From an uncultured Eggerthellaceae bacterium (lineage in GTDB: Bacteria > Actinomycetota > Coriobacteriia > Coriobacteriales > Eggerthellaceae), in the NCBI GenBank assembly GCA_947626665.1, contig CANQTB010000003.1, positions 1 to 33,045 on the forward strand: a stretch of DNA of 33,045 nt, given 5' to 3'. Shown here one piece after another: positions 26,736 to 30,854 of the stretch; the stretch's first letter is position 1, and each line of letters begins with the position of its first letter. Both the position numbers and the translations under genes were made by a program. The notes below the pieces were generated by a model. The model saw nothing but the letters and a program-made list of their open reading frames with translations. It had not been told where the DNA came from and made no database searches.

Positions 26736-26757
26736 CCATGAAAGGCCGCGCGTTAAC

Positions 26758-26778
26758 GGCTAATTTGAGAAGTTAGCC
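26758..26778. promoter_or_regulatory. inverted repeat upstream of feoA1, candidate metal-regulator operator
   Basis: GGCTAA and TTAGCC are perfect complements separated by nine bases, for a 21-bp element just upstream of the presumed feo promoter. The half-sites resemble the TTAG/CTAA content of DtxR/MntR-type boxes but do not match a full box. The DtxR-type protein encoded at the end of this cluster is an obvious candidate ligand. Confidence 0.45.
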
Positions 26779-26787
26779 AAATCTTCC

Positions 26788-26814
26788 TTTACAAAATGTT
26801 TGAGAAGGTATACT
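26788..26814 (+). promoter_or_regulatory. putative promoter of the feo cluster
   Basis: TTTACA (26788-26793) and TATACT (26809-26814) match five of six consensus bases each, separated by 15 bases, which is slightly short. The predicted leader before the feoA1 start at 26902 is about 80 bases. Confidence 0.45.
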
Positions 26815-26901
26815 TTTAGTAAACCAACGGTAACTTATTCGCTTCTTGCCAATTTCTTTAGGCGAGAACGAGCGAACGGCAAAAGAAGAAGGATGGATGT
26901 C

Positions 26902-27186
26902 ATGCAGGAAGCTTCGGTAGTCGAAAGAATTGCCTTTGCGACGCTCAACGATGACTTCGGAACGCGCCAGCAGATGCCGCTTTCGTTTTTACGGAGCGGC
27001 GATCGTGCCCGCATCGCCAAAGTTCGTGGCAAGGGCGAGGTGCATCATCATCTCGAAAACCTCGGTTTTGTCGAGGGCGCCGACGTGTATGTGGTTTCCG
27101 AGCAAGGGGGGAACCTCATCATCGAGATCAAGGGCACGCAGGTGGCGCTCGATCGCAGCATCGCATCGAAGATCATCACATGCTAG
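26902..27186 (+). CDS. feoA: FeoA-family protein (first copy)
   Basis: FeoA proteins are small SH3-like, cytoplasmic accessory factors of the FeoB ferrous-iron transporter. The 94-residue form contains MPLSFLRSGDRARIAKVRGKGEVHHHLENLGFVEGADVYVVS and IIEIKGTQVALDRSIASKI, the usual FeoA pattern. ATG 26902 has AAGGATGG at good distance; ATG 26893 in the same frame is the alternative. The ORF-track opening at 26800 lies in the promoter. A second feoA follows after a 119-base spacer with a strong hairpin. Confidence 0.87.
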   Translation: MQEASVVERIAFATLNDDFGTRQQMPLSFLRSGDRARIAKVRGKGEVHHHLENLGFVEGADVYVVSEQGGNLIIEIKGTQVALDRSIASKIITC

Positions 27187-27305: not shown

Positions 27306-27557
27306 ATGGCAGAGGCATCTCAGGGAAACGTGCCGAAGAAGACCCTTCGCGATGTGCCGATCGGCGAAACGGCAAAGGTCGTGCGTCTTACCGGCGAGGG
27401 CGCGCTGAAGCGCCACATCATGGACATGGGCATCACGAAAGGCGTCGACGTGTACGTTCGCAAGGTGGCGCCCCTCGGAGACCCCATCGAGGTGACGGTG
27501 CGCGGCTACGAGCTTTCGCTGCGTAAGAGCGAGGCGGAAAACGTCGTGGTTGGCTAG
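27306..27557 (+). CDS. feoA: FeoA-family protein (second copy)
   Basis: The 83-residue protein has the FeoA pattern: LRDVPIGETAKVVRLTGEGALKRHIMDMGITKGVDVYVRKVAPLGDPIEVTVRGYELSLRKSEA. It is closer to the usual FeoA consensus than the first copy, including the DPIEVTVRGYELSLR stretch. The ribosome binding site is modest (GGCGGAAG). Two FeoA genes ahead of one feoB is a known layout in several anaerobes. Confidence 0.92.
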   Translation: MAEASQGNVPKKTLRDVPIGETAKVVRLTGEGALKRHIMDMGITKGVDVYVRKVAPLGDPIEVTVRGYELSLRKSEAENVVVG

Positions 27558-27563
27558 GCCGCG

Positions 27564-27627
27564 GGTGATGTAAGACGGCGTAAAGCGGCGTGAGGCGGCA
27601 TAAGGCGACCGCCGCATTCGCATCACC
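27564..27627 (+). repeat. long-range stem enclosing 10-bp repeats before feoB
   Basis: GGTGATG (27564-27570) and CATCACC (27621-27627) are perfect complements that enclose about 50 bases of imperfect 10-bp repeats related to GCGGCGTAAG, ending in GGCGACCGCCGC, which can itself fold. The element stands between the feoA2 stop and the terminator at 27629. It could be a structured leader of feoB. Confidence 0.55.
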
Positions 27628-27628
27628 G

Positions 27629-27652
27629 TGCGCCAAAGGGCGCATCTTTTTT
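27629..27652 (+). terminator. intrinsic terminator between feoA2 and feoB
   Basis: TGCGCC and GGCGCA form a GC-rich six-base stem around an AAAG loop, followed by TC and six T residues, a standard rho-independent terminator. It lies inside what looks like one operon, 42 bases before the feoB start. Partial termination or attenuation before feoB is therefore likely. Confidence 0.75.
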
Positions 27653-27693
27653 GAGCATGAGTTAGACGAAATTAACTTTAAGGAGAGAAAGGT

Positions 27694-30057
27694 ATGGGAA
27701 TCAACATTGCGCTTGCCGGAAACCCGAACTGCGGCAAGACGACCATGTTCAACGATCTCACGGGAGCGAACCAATATGTGGGGAACTGGCCCGGCGTGAC
27801 CGTTGAGAAAAAAGAAGGCAAGTATACGCGCGACAAGGAGGTCACGATCACTGACTTGCCGGGCATCTATTCGCTTTCGCCCTATTCGCCTGAGGAGATC
27901 GTTGCACGCGACTATCTGCTCTCCGGCGCTCCCGACGTGGTGATCAACCTCATCGATGGAACGAACCTTGAGCGCAATCTCTACCTCACCACCCAGATCA
28001 TCAATTTGGGCGTGCCCGTCGTCGTGGCCCTCAACATGATGGACTTGGTGGAGAAATCGGGGAATAAGATCGATGTCGCGAAGCTCTCGGCAGAACTCGG
28101 CTGCCCTGTCATTGAAACGGCAGCCTCAAAGGGCCGCGGACTGAACGACGTGATGGGAGCCGCTCAGGCAGCGGCAGCGAAGGGGACGGCCCCTGCCTCA
28201 ACGATGCGCTTCGACGATGATATTGAAACTGCCATCGCGAAAGTGATCGACGAGATCGGCGGGCGCGTACCTTCAAACCTTGTGCGGTGGTACGCGATCA
28301 AGCTCCTCGAAAACGACAGCCTCACCCTCTCGCGCCTGAATCTGACGGCGCATAACCTCAGCACGATCGCGGCCATCCGCGAGGGCCTTGAGGAAGAATA
28401 CGACGACGATGCCGAAAGCATCATCACCGGCGCGCGCTACGATGTGATCACCGACGTGGTGGCGGGTGTTCTCAAGCGCTCGGTAAAGGGGCTTACGACC
28501 ACGCAGAAGGTCGACCGGATCGTCACGAACCGCTGGCTCGGCATTCCGATCTTCATCGTCGTGATGTTCATCGTCTACTACCTCTCCGTCTCCACCTTCG
28601 GCACGCTGTTCACCGACTGGGCGAACGACGGCCTGTTCGGGGACGGCTGGCTCTACACCGGCGTCGAGGAATACGATGGCGCGGTGGAGGCTTGGGAGGA
28701 AGAGCTCGCCGCAGCCGAGGAGTCGGGTGCCAGCGAGGCCGCACTTGCGGCGATTGAAGAGGCCGAGCCTAATCCGGCCGATTTCGGCATCTACCACGTG
28801 GGCATTCCTGTCGTCGTGGGCGAATGGATGAACACGATCGGCGTTGCGGATTGGCTCCAAAGCCTCGTGATCGACGGCATCATCGCGGGCGTCGGCGCCG
28901 TGCTGGGCTTCGTTCCGCAGATGATCGTGCTGTTCCTCCTGCTCTCCATCCTTGAGCAATGCGGCTATATGGCGCGCGTCGCGTTCATCATGGACCGCAT
29001 CTTCCGCAAGTTCGGCCTTTCCGGCAAGAGCTTCATCCCGATGCTCATCGGCAGCGGCTGCGGCGTGCCGGCGGTCATGGCCACGAAAACGATCGAAAAC
29101 GAAAAAGACCGTCGCATGACCATCATGACCACCACGATGATCCCGTGCGGCGCGAAGATGCCGATCATCGCCCTCGTGTTCGGCGCCATCGCGTCGGGCA
29201 ATTCCGAGGACTTCTGGTGGGTGGCGCCGGTGTTCTACTTCCTCGGTGTGTTCGCGATCATCATCTCGGGCATCATGTTGCGCAAGACGCGTGCGTTCGC
29301 CGGCGAGGCGACGTCCTTCATCATGGAGCTTCCAGCCTATCACGTCCCCGCCGTAAAAGGCGTGCTGCTTTCCACATGGGAGCGCGTGAAGGCGTTCATC
29401 GTGAAAGCGGGAACGATCATCTTCATCGCCTCGATCGTCATCTGGTTCCTCACGAACTTCGGCTTCTATGAGGGCGCCTTCGGCATGCTCAATACCGAGA
29501 TGGAAGGCTATATGGAGTACTCGCTCATGGCGGGAATCGGCAATGCGATCGCGTGGATCTTCGCACCGCTCGGCTTCGGCAACTGGGAAAGCGCTGCCAC
29601 CTCCATCACCGGCCTCGTGGCGAAGGAAAACGTCGTGGCGACCGTCGGCATCATGACCAACCTCGGCGAGCTCGGCGAAACTGATCCGGCGCTGTGGCAG
29701 GGCTTTGCCCTCATGTTCGGAGGAAGCGCCGCTGCGATTGCCGCGTTCTGCGCATTCAACCTTTTGTGTGCCCCGTGCTTCGCAGCCATCGGCGCGATCA
29801 GCAACCAGATGCGCTCCGCGAAATGGACGTGGGCGGCGATCGGCTACATGACCGGCTTCGCGTGGTGCGTCGGCTTGATGATCTATCAATTCGCCGGCTT
29901 GGCCCTTGGCGAGGTGTCCTTCAGTGTGTGGACCGTGGTCGCCATCCTCATCCTTGAGGCGATGCTCTTCCAGATATTCCGCCCGATGCCCCATTTTGAG
30001 GAACGTGGCGAGAAGGGCGCCAAGGTGAAGAGCGCTGCCGCAAAGAACGTGGCGTAA
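27694..30057 (+). CDS. feoB: ferrous iron transport protein FeoB
   Basis: FeoB is the inner-membrane Fe(II) permease with an N-terminal G-protein domain. The 787-residue protein shows G1 GNPNCGKT at residues 9-16, G3 DLPG at 54-57, G4 NMMD at 114-117 and an AASKGRG G5-like stretch. The membrane domain contains both Gate-type regions, including GSGCGVPAVMATKTIENEKDRRM and IPCGAKMPIIALVFGA with conserved cysteines. Unusually, an insertion of roughly 50 residues (about 318-365) lies after the first membrane helix: acidic and Ala/Glu-rich (AWEEELAAAEESGASEAAL), probably an external helical hairpin. The start follows a strong AAGGAGAG. Fusion or loss of domains is not seen. Confidence 0.97.
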   Translation: MGINIALAGNPNCGKTTMFNDLTGANQYVGNWPGVTVEKKEGKYTRDKEVTITDLPGIYSLSPYSPEEIVARDYLLSGAPDVVINLIDGTNLERNLYLTTQIINLGVPVVVALNMMDLVEKSGNKIDVAKLSAELGCPVIETAASKGRGLNDVMGAAQAAAAKGTAPASTMRFDDDIETAIAKVIDEIGGRVPSNLVRWYAIKLLENDSLTLSRLNLTAHNLSTIAAIREGLEEEYDDDAESIITGARYDVITDVVAGVLKRSVKGLTTTQKVDRIVTNRWLGIPIFIVVMFIVYYLSVSTFGTLFTDWANDGLFGDGWLYTGVEEYDGAVEAWEEELAAAEESGASEAALAAIEEAEPNPADFGIYHVGIPVVVGEWMNTIGVADWLQSLVIDGIIAGVGAVLGFVPQMIVLFLLLSILEQCGYMARVAFIMDRIFRKFGLSGKSFIPMLIGSGCGVPAVMATKTIENEKDRRMTIMTTTMIPCGAKMPIIALVFGAIASGNSEDFWWVAPVFYFLGVFAIIISGIMLRKTRAFAGEATSFIMELPAYHVPAVKGVLLSTWERVKAFIVKAGTIIFIASIVIWFLTNFGFYEGAFGMLNTEMEGYMEYSLMAGIGNAIAWIFAPLGFGNWESAATSITGLVAKENVVATVGIMTNLGELGETDPALWQGFALMFGGSAAAIAAFCAFNLLCAPCFAAIGAISNQMRSAKWTWAAIGYMTGFAWCVGLMIYQFAGLALGEVSFSVWTVVAILILEAMLFQIFRPMPHFEERGEKGAKVKSAAAKNVA

Positions 30058-30217: not shown

Positions 30218-30430
30218 ATGTTGGTACCGATTGAGATAACGCCTGCGACCATTCTCGTTGCCGTGGCGGTCATCGTCCTCGTTGTGCTCGCTTTTCGCCG
30301 CCTGATCGTTCGCGGCATGTGCGACTGCCATGACCATTGCGGCGACGGCGCGGGCGGCTGCAAAGGATGCAAGGGGTGTTCTGCCGCTGCCGACATGGTC
30401 CGAAAGATGGAGCAGGCTGCCGAGCATTAA
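30218..30430 (+). CDS. FeoB-associated Cys-rich membrane protein
   Basis: The 70-residue protein has one N-terminal membrane helix (ATILVAVAVIVLVVLAFRRLIV) and a short cysteine-rich cytoplasmic tail, CDCHDHCGDGAGGCKGCKGC. This is the layout of the small FeoB-associated Cys-rich family found in Gram-positive bacteria. Such proteins may handle Fe(II) at the exit of FeoB or stand in for FeoC. It lies between feoB and the DtxR-type gene. The ribosome binding site is weak. Confidence 0.88.
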   Translation: MLVPIEITPATILVAVAVIVLVVLAFRRLIVRGMCDCHDHCGDGAGGCKGCKGCSAAADMVRKMEQAAEH

Positions 30431-30473: not shown

Positions 30474-30854
30474 ATGGAAAAGATGTCCATGTCTCATGAG
30501 GACTATCTCGAAGCGATGGTAATGCTCGGCGGAACCACGCAGCAATCCGTGCGTTCGGTTGACGTCGCAAACAAGCTGGGGGTCTCAAAGGCGTCGGTAA
30601 ACAAAGCCGTCTCTGTTCTGAAGGAACGCGGACTCGTAGAACAGCCGTATTACGGCGATATCACGCTTACTGAAAGTGGCTACGAATACGGGAAATCCGT
30701 TCTCGAACGCCATGAGCTCCTTTATGCATTTCTCACGAAGGCCCTCGGCATTCCCGAGGAGCGCGCCTATGACGAGGCGTGCCAGATGGAGCACGCGATA
30801 AGCGACGAATCGATGGAGCGCTGGGTCAGCTACGTGAAAAACCTCAATTTATAA
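30474..30854 (+). CDS. DtxR/MntR-family metal-dependent regulator
   Basis: The 126-residue protein starts with the family pattern MSHEDYLEAMVML, followed by a winged helix (VRSVDVANKLGVSKASVNKAVSVLKERGLVEQ). The metal-binding and dimer domain has ERHELLYAFLTKALGIPEERAYDEACQMEHAIS, with the conserved His, Glu and Cys/Glu ligands in place. It lacks the SH3-like third domain, as MntR-type members do. ATG 30474 follows GGAAGGAGA. As the last gene of the feo cluster it probably represses the cluster when Fe(II) or Mn(II) is plentiful; the inverted repeat at 26758 is a candidate site. Confidence 0.9.
   Translation: MEKMSMSHEDYLEAMVMLGGTTQQSVRSVDVANKLGVSKASVNKAVSVLKERGLVEQPYYGDITLTESGYEYGKSVLERHELLYAFLTKALGIPEERAYDEACQMEHAISDESMERWVSYVKNLNL

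Follow-up and report, generated by a model that had tools for sequence, protein, structure and literature searches.

Why a transcription terminator should lie inside the feo operon, directly before feoB, and what may act on it there, is the question raised by the window analyzed here, which is the whole stretch of 33,045 nucleotides from an uncultured Eggerthellaceae bacterium. The genes are arranged on the plus strand in the order of feoA1 (26893–27186; Pfam FeoA, 4.9e-17), feoA2 (27306–27557; Pfam FeoA, 2e-21), feoB (27694–30057; Pfam FeoB_N, 3.2e-68; TIGR00437, 2.9e-157), a small Cys-rich ORF of 70 amino acids, and a regulator gene of the DtxR/MntR family. The spacer between feoA2 and feoB is 136 nt long. 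The 70-aa ORF (30218–30430, plus strand) contains a membrane-like N-terminal segment and CDCHDHCGDGAGGCKGCKGC, and it resembles a small Cys-rich FeoB-associated protein; a Pfam/NCBIfam search at 0.001 gave no match for it.

For the comparison, the feoA2-feoB spacers were taken from Coriobacteriia, and those of Clostridia and other groups were obtained by scanning genome contigs. The FeoA2 of the window is approximately 70–82% identical to clostridial proteins (loci including L095, L098 and L132), and the spacer module is common to both, which, at the level of the sequences, suggests horizontal transfer of the feo cluster. In a genome of the same genus (G001), no clear feoB orthologue (best E-value, 1.1e-5) and no FeoA2 match were detected, and this feo cluster is absent there.

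Folding of the feoA2-feoB spacer

The original prediction placed an intrinsic terminator between feoA2 and feoB, and the folding calculations bear this out. The hairpin GTGCGCC-AAAG-GGCGCAT at 27628–27645 (plus strand) consists of 7 pairs, 5 of them GC, with a loop of 4 nt (AAAG), and a single C separates it from the run of T6 at 27647–27652 (plus strand), which forms the U-tract. The stem has a ΔG of approximately −11.4 kcal mol−1, which is lower than expected from dinucleotide shuffles (z = −3.3, p = 0.006), and the probability of its inner pairs is >0.99. A GC-rich hairpin followed by a U-tract within 0–2 nt, as found here, is the sequence form of a Rho-independent terminator.

The terminator was also examined in the relatives. 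Among the Coriobacteriia, a hairpin with a ΔG of −5 or lower abuts the T-run in 70 of 87 sites, compared with 11% of the shuffled segments, and these are 70 different hairpins, which indicates that the structure is retained while its letters vary. In Clostridia, a hairpin lies beside the T-run in 13 of 43 sites, and 25 sites have the T-run without a hairpin. The many clostridial sites of the latter kind indicate that the T-run tracks the operator described in the next section.

Upstream of the terminator, the original prediction described a 7-bp outer stem enclosing imperfect 10-bp repeats. The letters do exist, as GGTGATG at 27564–27570 and CATCACC at 27621–27627, and as a GCGGC-rich, imperfect 10-nt tandem repeat at 27570–27607 (plus strand; 3.8 copies according to TRF), but their pairing is at the level of chance. 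The 70 nt upstream of the terminator, comprising the stem and the repeats, show no folding beyond that of shuffled sequence (z = −0.65, p = 0.24), and 8.5% of the shuffled copies contain a comparable 7-bp stem. The repeat block is species-specific, with no supported function, and a search of approximately 200 homologous feo loci found no homologue of it, so that the repeats are not conserved in the related genomes. A scan with Rfam gave no match in the spacer, and its only match in the window is a tRNA elsewhere. It had also been proposed that the repeats pair with the GCGCC arm of the terminator; no alternative pairing of the arms was found. In the full transcript, the best fold lacking the terminator stem is 11.9 kcal mol−1 worse and leaves the arms unpaired, and the 5′ arm can pair with the beginning of the spacer only transiently, until the 3′ arm has been transcribed.

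These results bear on the possibility of an RNA attenuator or riboswitch, in which a metal or a protein is sensed by the outer stem together with the repeats, or in which the palindrome described below folds as an RNA hairpin ahead of the ribosome-binding site of feoB. Taken as a whole, the 161-nt region is more stably folded than its shuffles (z = −2.9), which would favor such a device; however, this excess comes from the terminator and is not found in the remainder. A switch formed by the outer stem and the repeats was rejected because of the comparison with shuffles, the absence of an anti-terminator and the absence of conservation, and the metal- or protein-sensing RNA leader of the original prediction is unsupported for the same reasons. 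We consider an RNA device of either kind to be highly improbable.

The palindrome behind the terminator

The interval covered by the original prediction also contains a palindrome, which was overlooked there. The sequence AGTTAGACGAAATTAACT is located at 27660–27677 (plus strand), with a core of GTTAG-N6-TTAAC at 27661–27676, and is a predicted operator of a DtxR-family repressor within the transcribed leader of feoB. The T6 of the terminator ends 8 nt before this core, and its position is conserved in two phyla. The Shine-Dalgarno sequence of feoB, AAGGAG (27680–27685, plus strand), follows 3 nt past the core, and similar crowding is seen in the relatives, where 6 nt or fewer separate its start from the operator in 17 of 79 Coriobacteriia and 16 of 35 Clostridia. 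At those loci, the operator must therefore be transcribed.

An exact copy of GTTAR-N6-YTAAC occurs only once in the 1.97-Mb assembly, namely in the feoB spacer. The core GTTA-N8-TAAC is exact in 76 of 113 distinct feoA2-feoB spacers of Coriobacteriia, with one mismatch in 18 more, and exact in 22 of 71 mostly clostridial spacers, with one mismatch in 21 more. Judged from these alignments, the palindrome is a recurrent element of the feoA-feoB spacer in most of the Coriobacteriia examined and in many Clostridia. In the clostridial feoB sites, the last position is T (GTTAG...CTAAT) in 40%, and the first position is A (ATTAG...CTAAC) in 0 of 43, an asymmetry of the half-sites that is unexpected for a symmetric dimer.

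The second variant of the RNA device, with the palindrome as an RNA hairpin, was rejected because no covariation was found. In Coriobacteriia, the fifth pair is often A-C (11) or C-C (6), compared with A-T in 2; a pair that is not kept as RNA is the pattern expected of a DNA site.

When the 18-bp form was searched with up to 2 mismatches, 20 strand-hits were obtained in the assembly. They include a degenerate operator copy, AGTAAACCAACGGTAACT, at 26818–26835 (plus strand), where the feoA1-feoA2 transcript presumably starts, directly behind TATACT (26809–26814, plus strand), the candidate −10 box of the feoA1 promoter. An operator-like site is present upstream of feoA2 in 74 of 103 Coriobacteriia loci. 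Further half-sites with another spacing are found in GTTAACGGCTAATTTGAGAAGTTAGCC at 26750–26780, upstream of the −10 box of feoA1, and similar ones precede feoA1 in the relatives.

The predicted owner of the operator is the DtxR/MntR-family regulator of 126 aa encoded at 30474–30854 on the plus strand (PF02742, 1e-18; PF01325, 2e-9). In the assembly, which has a completeness of 87%, no other gene exceeds the PF01325 cut-off, and one weak match below the threshold lies elsewhere. In Eggerthellaceae, a gene for a regulator of 60–77% identity adjoins feo on the 3′ side of feoB in most loci with enough flanking sequence. In many clostridial loci, a gene of 35–45% identity lies divergently upstream of feoA1, and the intergenic region between the two is full of copies of the palindrome. 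The regulator is assigned to the palindrome on the basis of this gene neighborhood, and a dyad site conserved beside a DtxR-family gene is what is expected in sequence of an operator of this family. The palindrome is thus very probably the operator of the DtxR-family repressor encoded nearby.

The GTTAG/CTAAC half-sites resemble the DtxR/IdeR box, in which the half-sites are 1 nt apart, compared with 6 nt in the feoB palindrome. In the alignment to MntR of B. subtilis (1ON1), the regulator has Cys at the position of MntR Glu99. DtxR and IdeR carry Cys at the equivalent position, which suggests the sensing of Fe(II).

Distance between the T-run and the operator

Apart from the palindrome, on which the sites were aligned, what is most conserved in both groups is a T-tract at −16 to −9. 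A T5+ run ends 8–12 nt before the palindrome core in 71 of 87 Coriobacteriia and 28 of 43 Clostridia feoB sites, where the mean of the shuffles is approximately 0.5. Such a run accompanies only 2 of 109 operators on the feoA1 side in Coriobacteriia and 11 of 142 in Clostridia, which indicates that the T-tract is not needed for the binding of the protein; the T-run as a part of the protein site was rejected on these counts. Some feoA1 leaders, L150 and L162 among them, also have a T-run followed by the operator approximately 10 nt further on, and in L150 this T-run itself comes immediately after a further palindrome.

The T-run and the operator are also lost together across several genera of Coriobacteriia (86:6 versus 3:12, Fisher p = 3e-9), and the same test in Clostridia, with few cases, gave p = 0.08–0.13. 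Because the sequences are related, the independent events are fewer than these p-values imply. When the whole family was searched for T5-N6-12-operator, the arrangement was present in 62 of the 140 genomes, representing 31 of the 48 genera; most of the matches lay at feoB, and the reversed control gave few. Culturable species that carry the module include Enteroscipio rubneri, Paraeggerthella hongkongensis and Blautia wexlerae (loci L084–L086 and L132). The distance from the stop element to the protein site is thus fixed and the operator lies between the terminator and the Shine-Dalgarno sequence, which is the layout of roadblock-type termination.

The palindrome might instead serve as an auxiliary operator that, through looping or cooperative binding, helps to repress the feoA1 promoter, with the terminator only setting the FeoA:FeoB ratio. 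The second copy approximately 840 bp upstream would fit such a role, and several operators per cluster are common. However, it would leave unexplained the fixed spacing of the T-run in two phyla, its joint loss with the operator and its scarcity at the other operators, and we regard this role as improbable.

The arrangement could also consist of two independent units: the terminator would mark the end of the feoA mRNA, and feoB would be transcribed from a separate promoter that the DtxR-family protein represses at the palindrome, with the T-run doubling as part of the −35 box. This is the usual textbook arrangement, and TTG often ends the T-run, with G at −8 in 69% of Coriobacteriia and 47% of Clostridia and with TTGAC in some Clostridia. 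The feoB spacers were scanned for sigma-70-type promoters at 9 of 12 consensus positions, a scan that would miss promoters of unusual type. Matches were found in 4 of 84 Coriobacteriia and 8 of 42 Clostridia, compared with 4.75 and 8.0 in the shuffles, whereas the feoA1 side is enriched, with 22 of 75 and 37 of 41 compared with 7.4 and 19, respectively. In the alignments of Coriobacteriia and Clostridia, no −10 box keeps a constant distance from the feoB operator.

The proximity of the Shine-Dalgarno sequence means that a transcript starting behind the site would lose it, and a −10 box placed in the right half-site would put the start inside or past the Shine-Dalgarno sequence in many species. 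The genuine operator-in-spacer promoters of these clusters also differ in geometry. On the clostridial feoA1 side of L130 and L162, the operator forms the spacer between the −35 and −10 boxes (TTGACA-site-TATAAT), and TAxxxT boxes lie 12–14 nt upstream of the feoA1-side operators of relatives or just past them. A feoB promoter with the T-run as its −35 box was rejected because of the missing constant −10 box, the shuffle-level scan and the nearness of the Shine-Dalgarno sequence. Two independent units are therefore unlikely, even if we consider that the iron-dependent repressor YtgR also represses an internal promoter in addition to promoting termination (PMC6504234).

Proposed gating of termination by a repressor

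The reading that we prefer, and consider somewhat probable, is a protein-gated terminator, in which the iron-loaded DtxR-family repressor on the operator promotes termination at the U-tract before feoB. Three elements of this reading are inferred: recognition of the palindrome by the regulator, Fe(II) as the ligand, and an effect of binding on termination. Transcription starting at the feoA1 promoter would run into the spacer. In iron-rich cells, the repressor would carry its metal and sit on the operator as a roadblock to RNA polymerase, and the active site of the blocked polymerase would stand in or near the U-tract, where the transcript would be released, so that feoA would be made and feoB would not. 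The U-tract would provide the weakest hybrid, and in Coriobacteriia the hairpin would aid the release. The same repressor would also make initiation from the feoA1 promoter less frequent. Under iron shortage it would leave the operator, and a part of the polymerases would pass the terminator to express feoB.

Because the hairpin is strong, the readthrough at low iron may be small unless it is helped, and the hairpin alone may end most of the transcripts. The exact position at which the polymerase stops decides whether the hairpin can form: a polymerase stopped approximately 15 bp before the site, as with Reb1 and Nsi1, would stand at the first letters of the T-run, before the whole hairpin has emerged. 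The idea of the original prediction that feoB is conditional or reduced relative to feoA and that a metal is sensed fits the evidence in general terms; the RNA as its agent is unsupported, and the DtxR-family protein is the more likely sensor.

The closest known system is YtgR of Chlamydia trachomatis, which is reported to promote termination where it binds in the trpR-trpBA intergenic region (PMC6504234). The likeness consists in an iron-dependent repressor, an operator within the operon and, when iron is replete, the ending of transcripts that began at the upstream promoter; however, an internal promoter was mapped there and the text does not use the word "terminator" (PMC6504234). The feo case differs from it in having a hairpin and/or a U-tract at a constant distance from the operator in two phyla, in concerning the feo operon itself and in having no promoter signal.

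In the portions of the source at hand, RNA polymerase I is described as stopping 15 bp before the site of Reb1 or Nsi1, behind a T-rich element and a hairpin (PMC12366685). The order of hairpin, T-rich element and site of a roadblock protein is the same in feo, whereas the polymerase is eukaryotic, the proteins are others and those portions describe no control by a ligand (PMC12366685); the feo roadblock would be controlled by a metal. According to excerpts of further reports, LacI (PMC10310618, PMC4132739) and C.Kpn2I (PMC6237814), bound to DNA downstream of a promoter, halt the elongating RNA polymerase, which is released, for example, by Mfd. A regulator bound past the promoter and blocking elongation is what they have in common with the feo proposal, but these excerpts mention no dedicated U-tract or hairpin at a fixed spacing (PMC10310618, PMC4132739, PMC6237814).

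With respect to DtxR, IdeR and MntR, the feo cluster encodes a member with DNA-binding and metal-binding domains; the difference is that the feoB site lies in a transcribed leader behind a terminator. A search of open-access papers found no report of this feo arrangement, with a terminator and an operator before feoB.

The feo spacer is likely to be a metal-gated, protein-assisted terminator, and what is new is likely to be a variant of roadblock regulation within operons. More tentatively, it may represent a class of bacterial terminator, gated by a ligand, that has so far not been described: a metalloregulator bound at a set distance past the U-tract would switch termination in the feo operon. 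This class would be common to Coriobacteriia and Clostridia and would have a layout like that of Reb1, the T-rich element and the hairpin of RNA polymerase I.

For an intra-operon terminator, the DNA immediately behind it should be inspected before an RNA switch is proposed. If the proposal is true, it would provide a compact case from comparative genomics of a DNA-binding repressor cooperating with an intrinsic terminator, and iron would control the ferrous iron uptake of many gut anaerobes twice, when transcription is initiated at feoA and when it is terminated ahead of feoB, through one local repressor.
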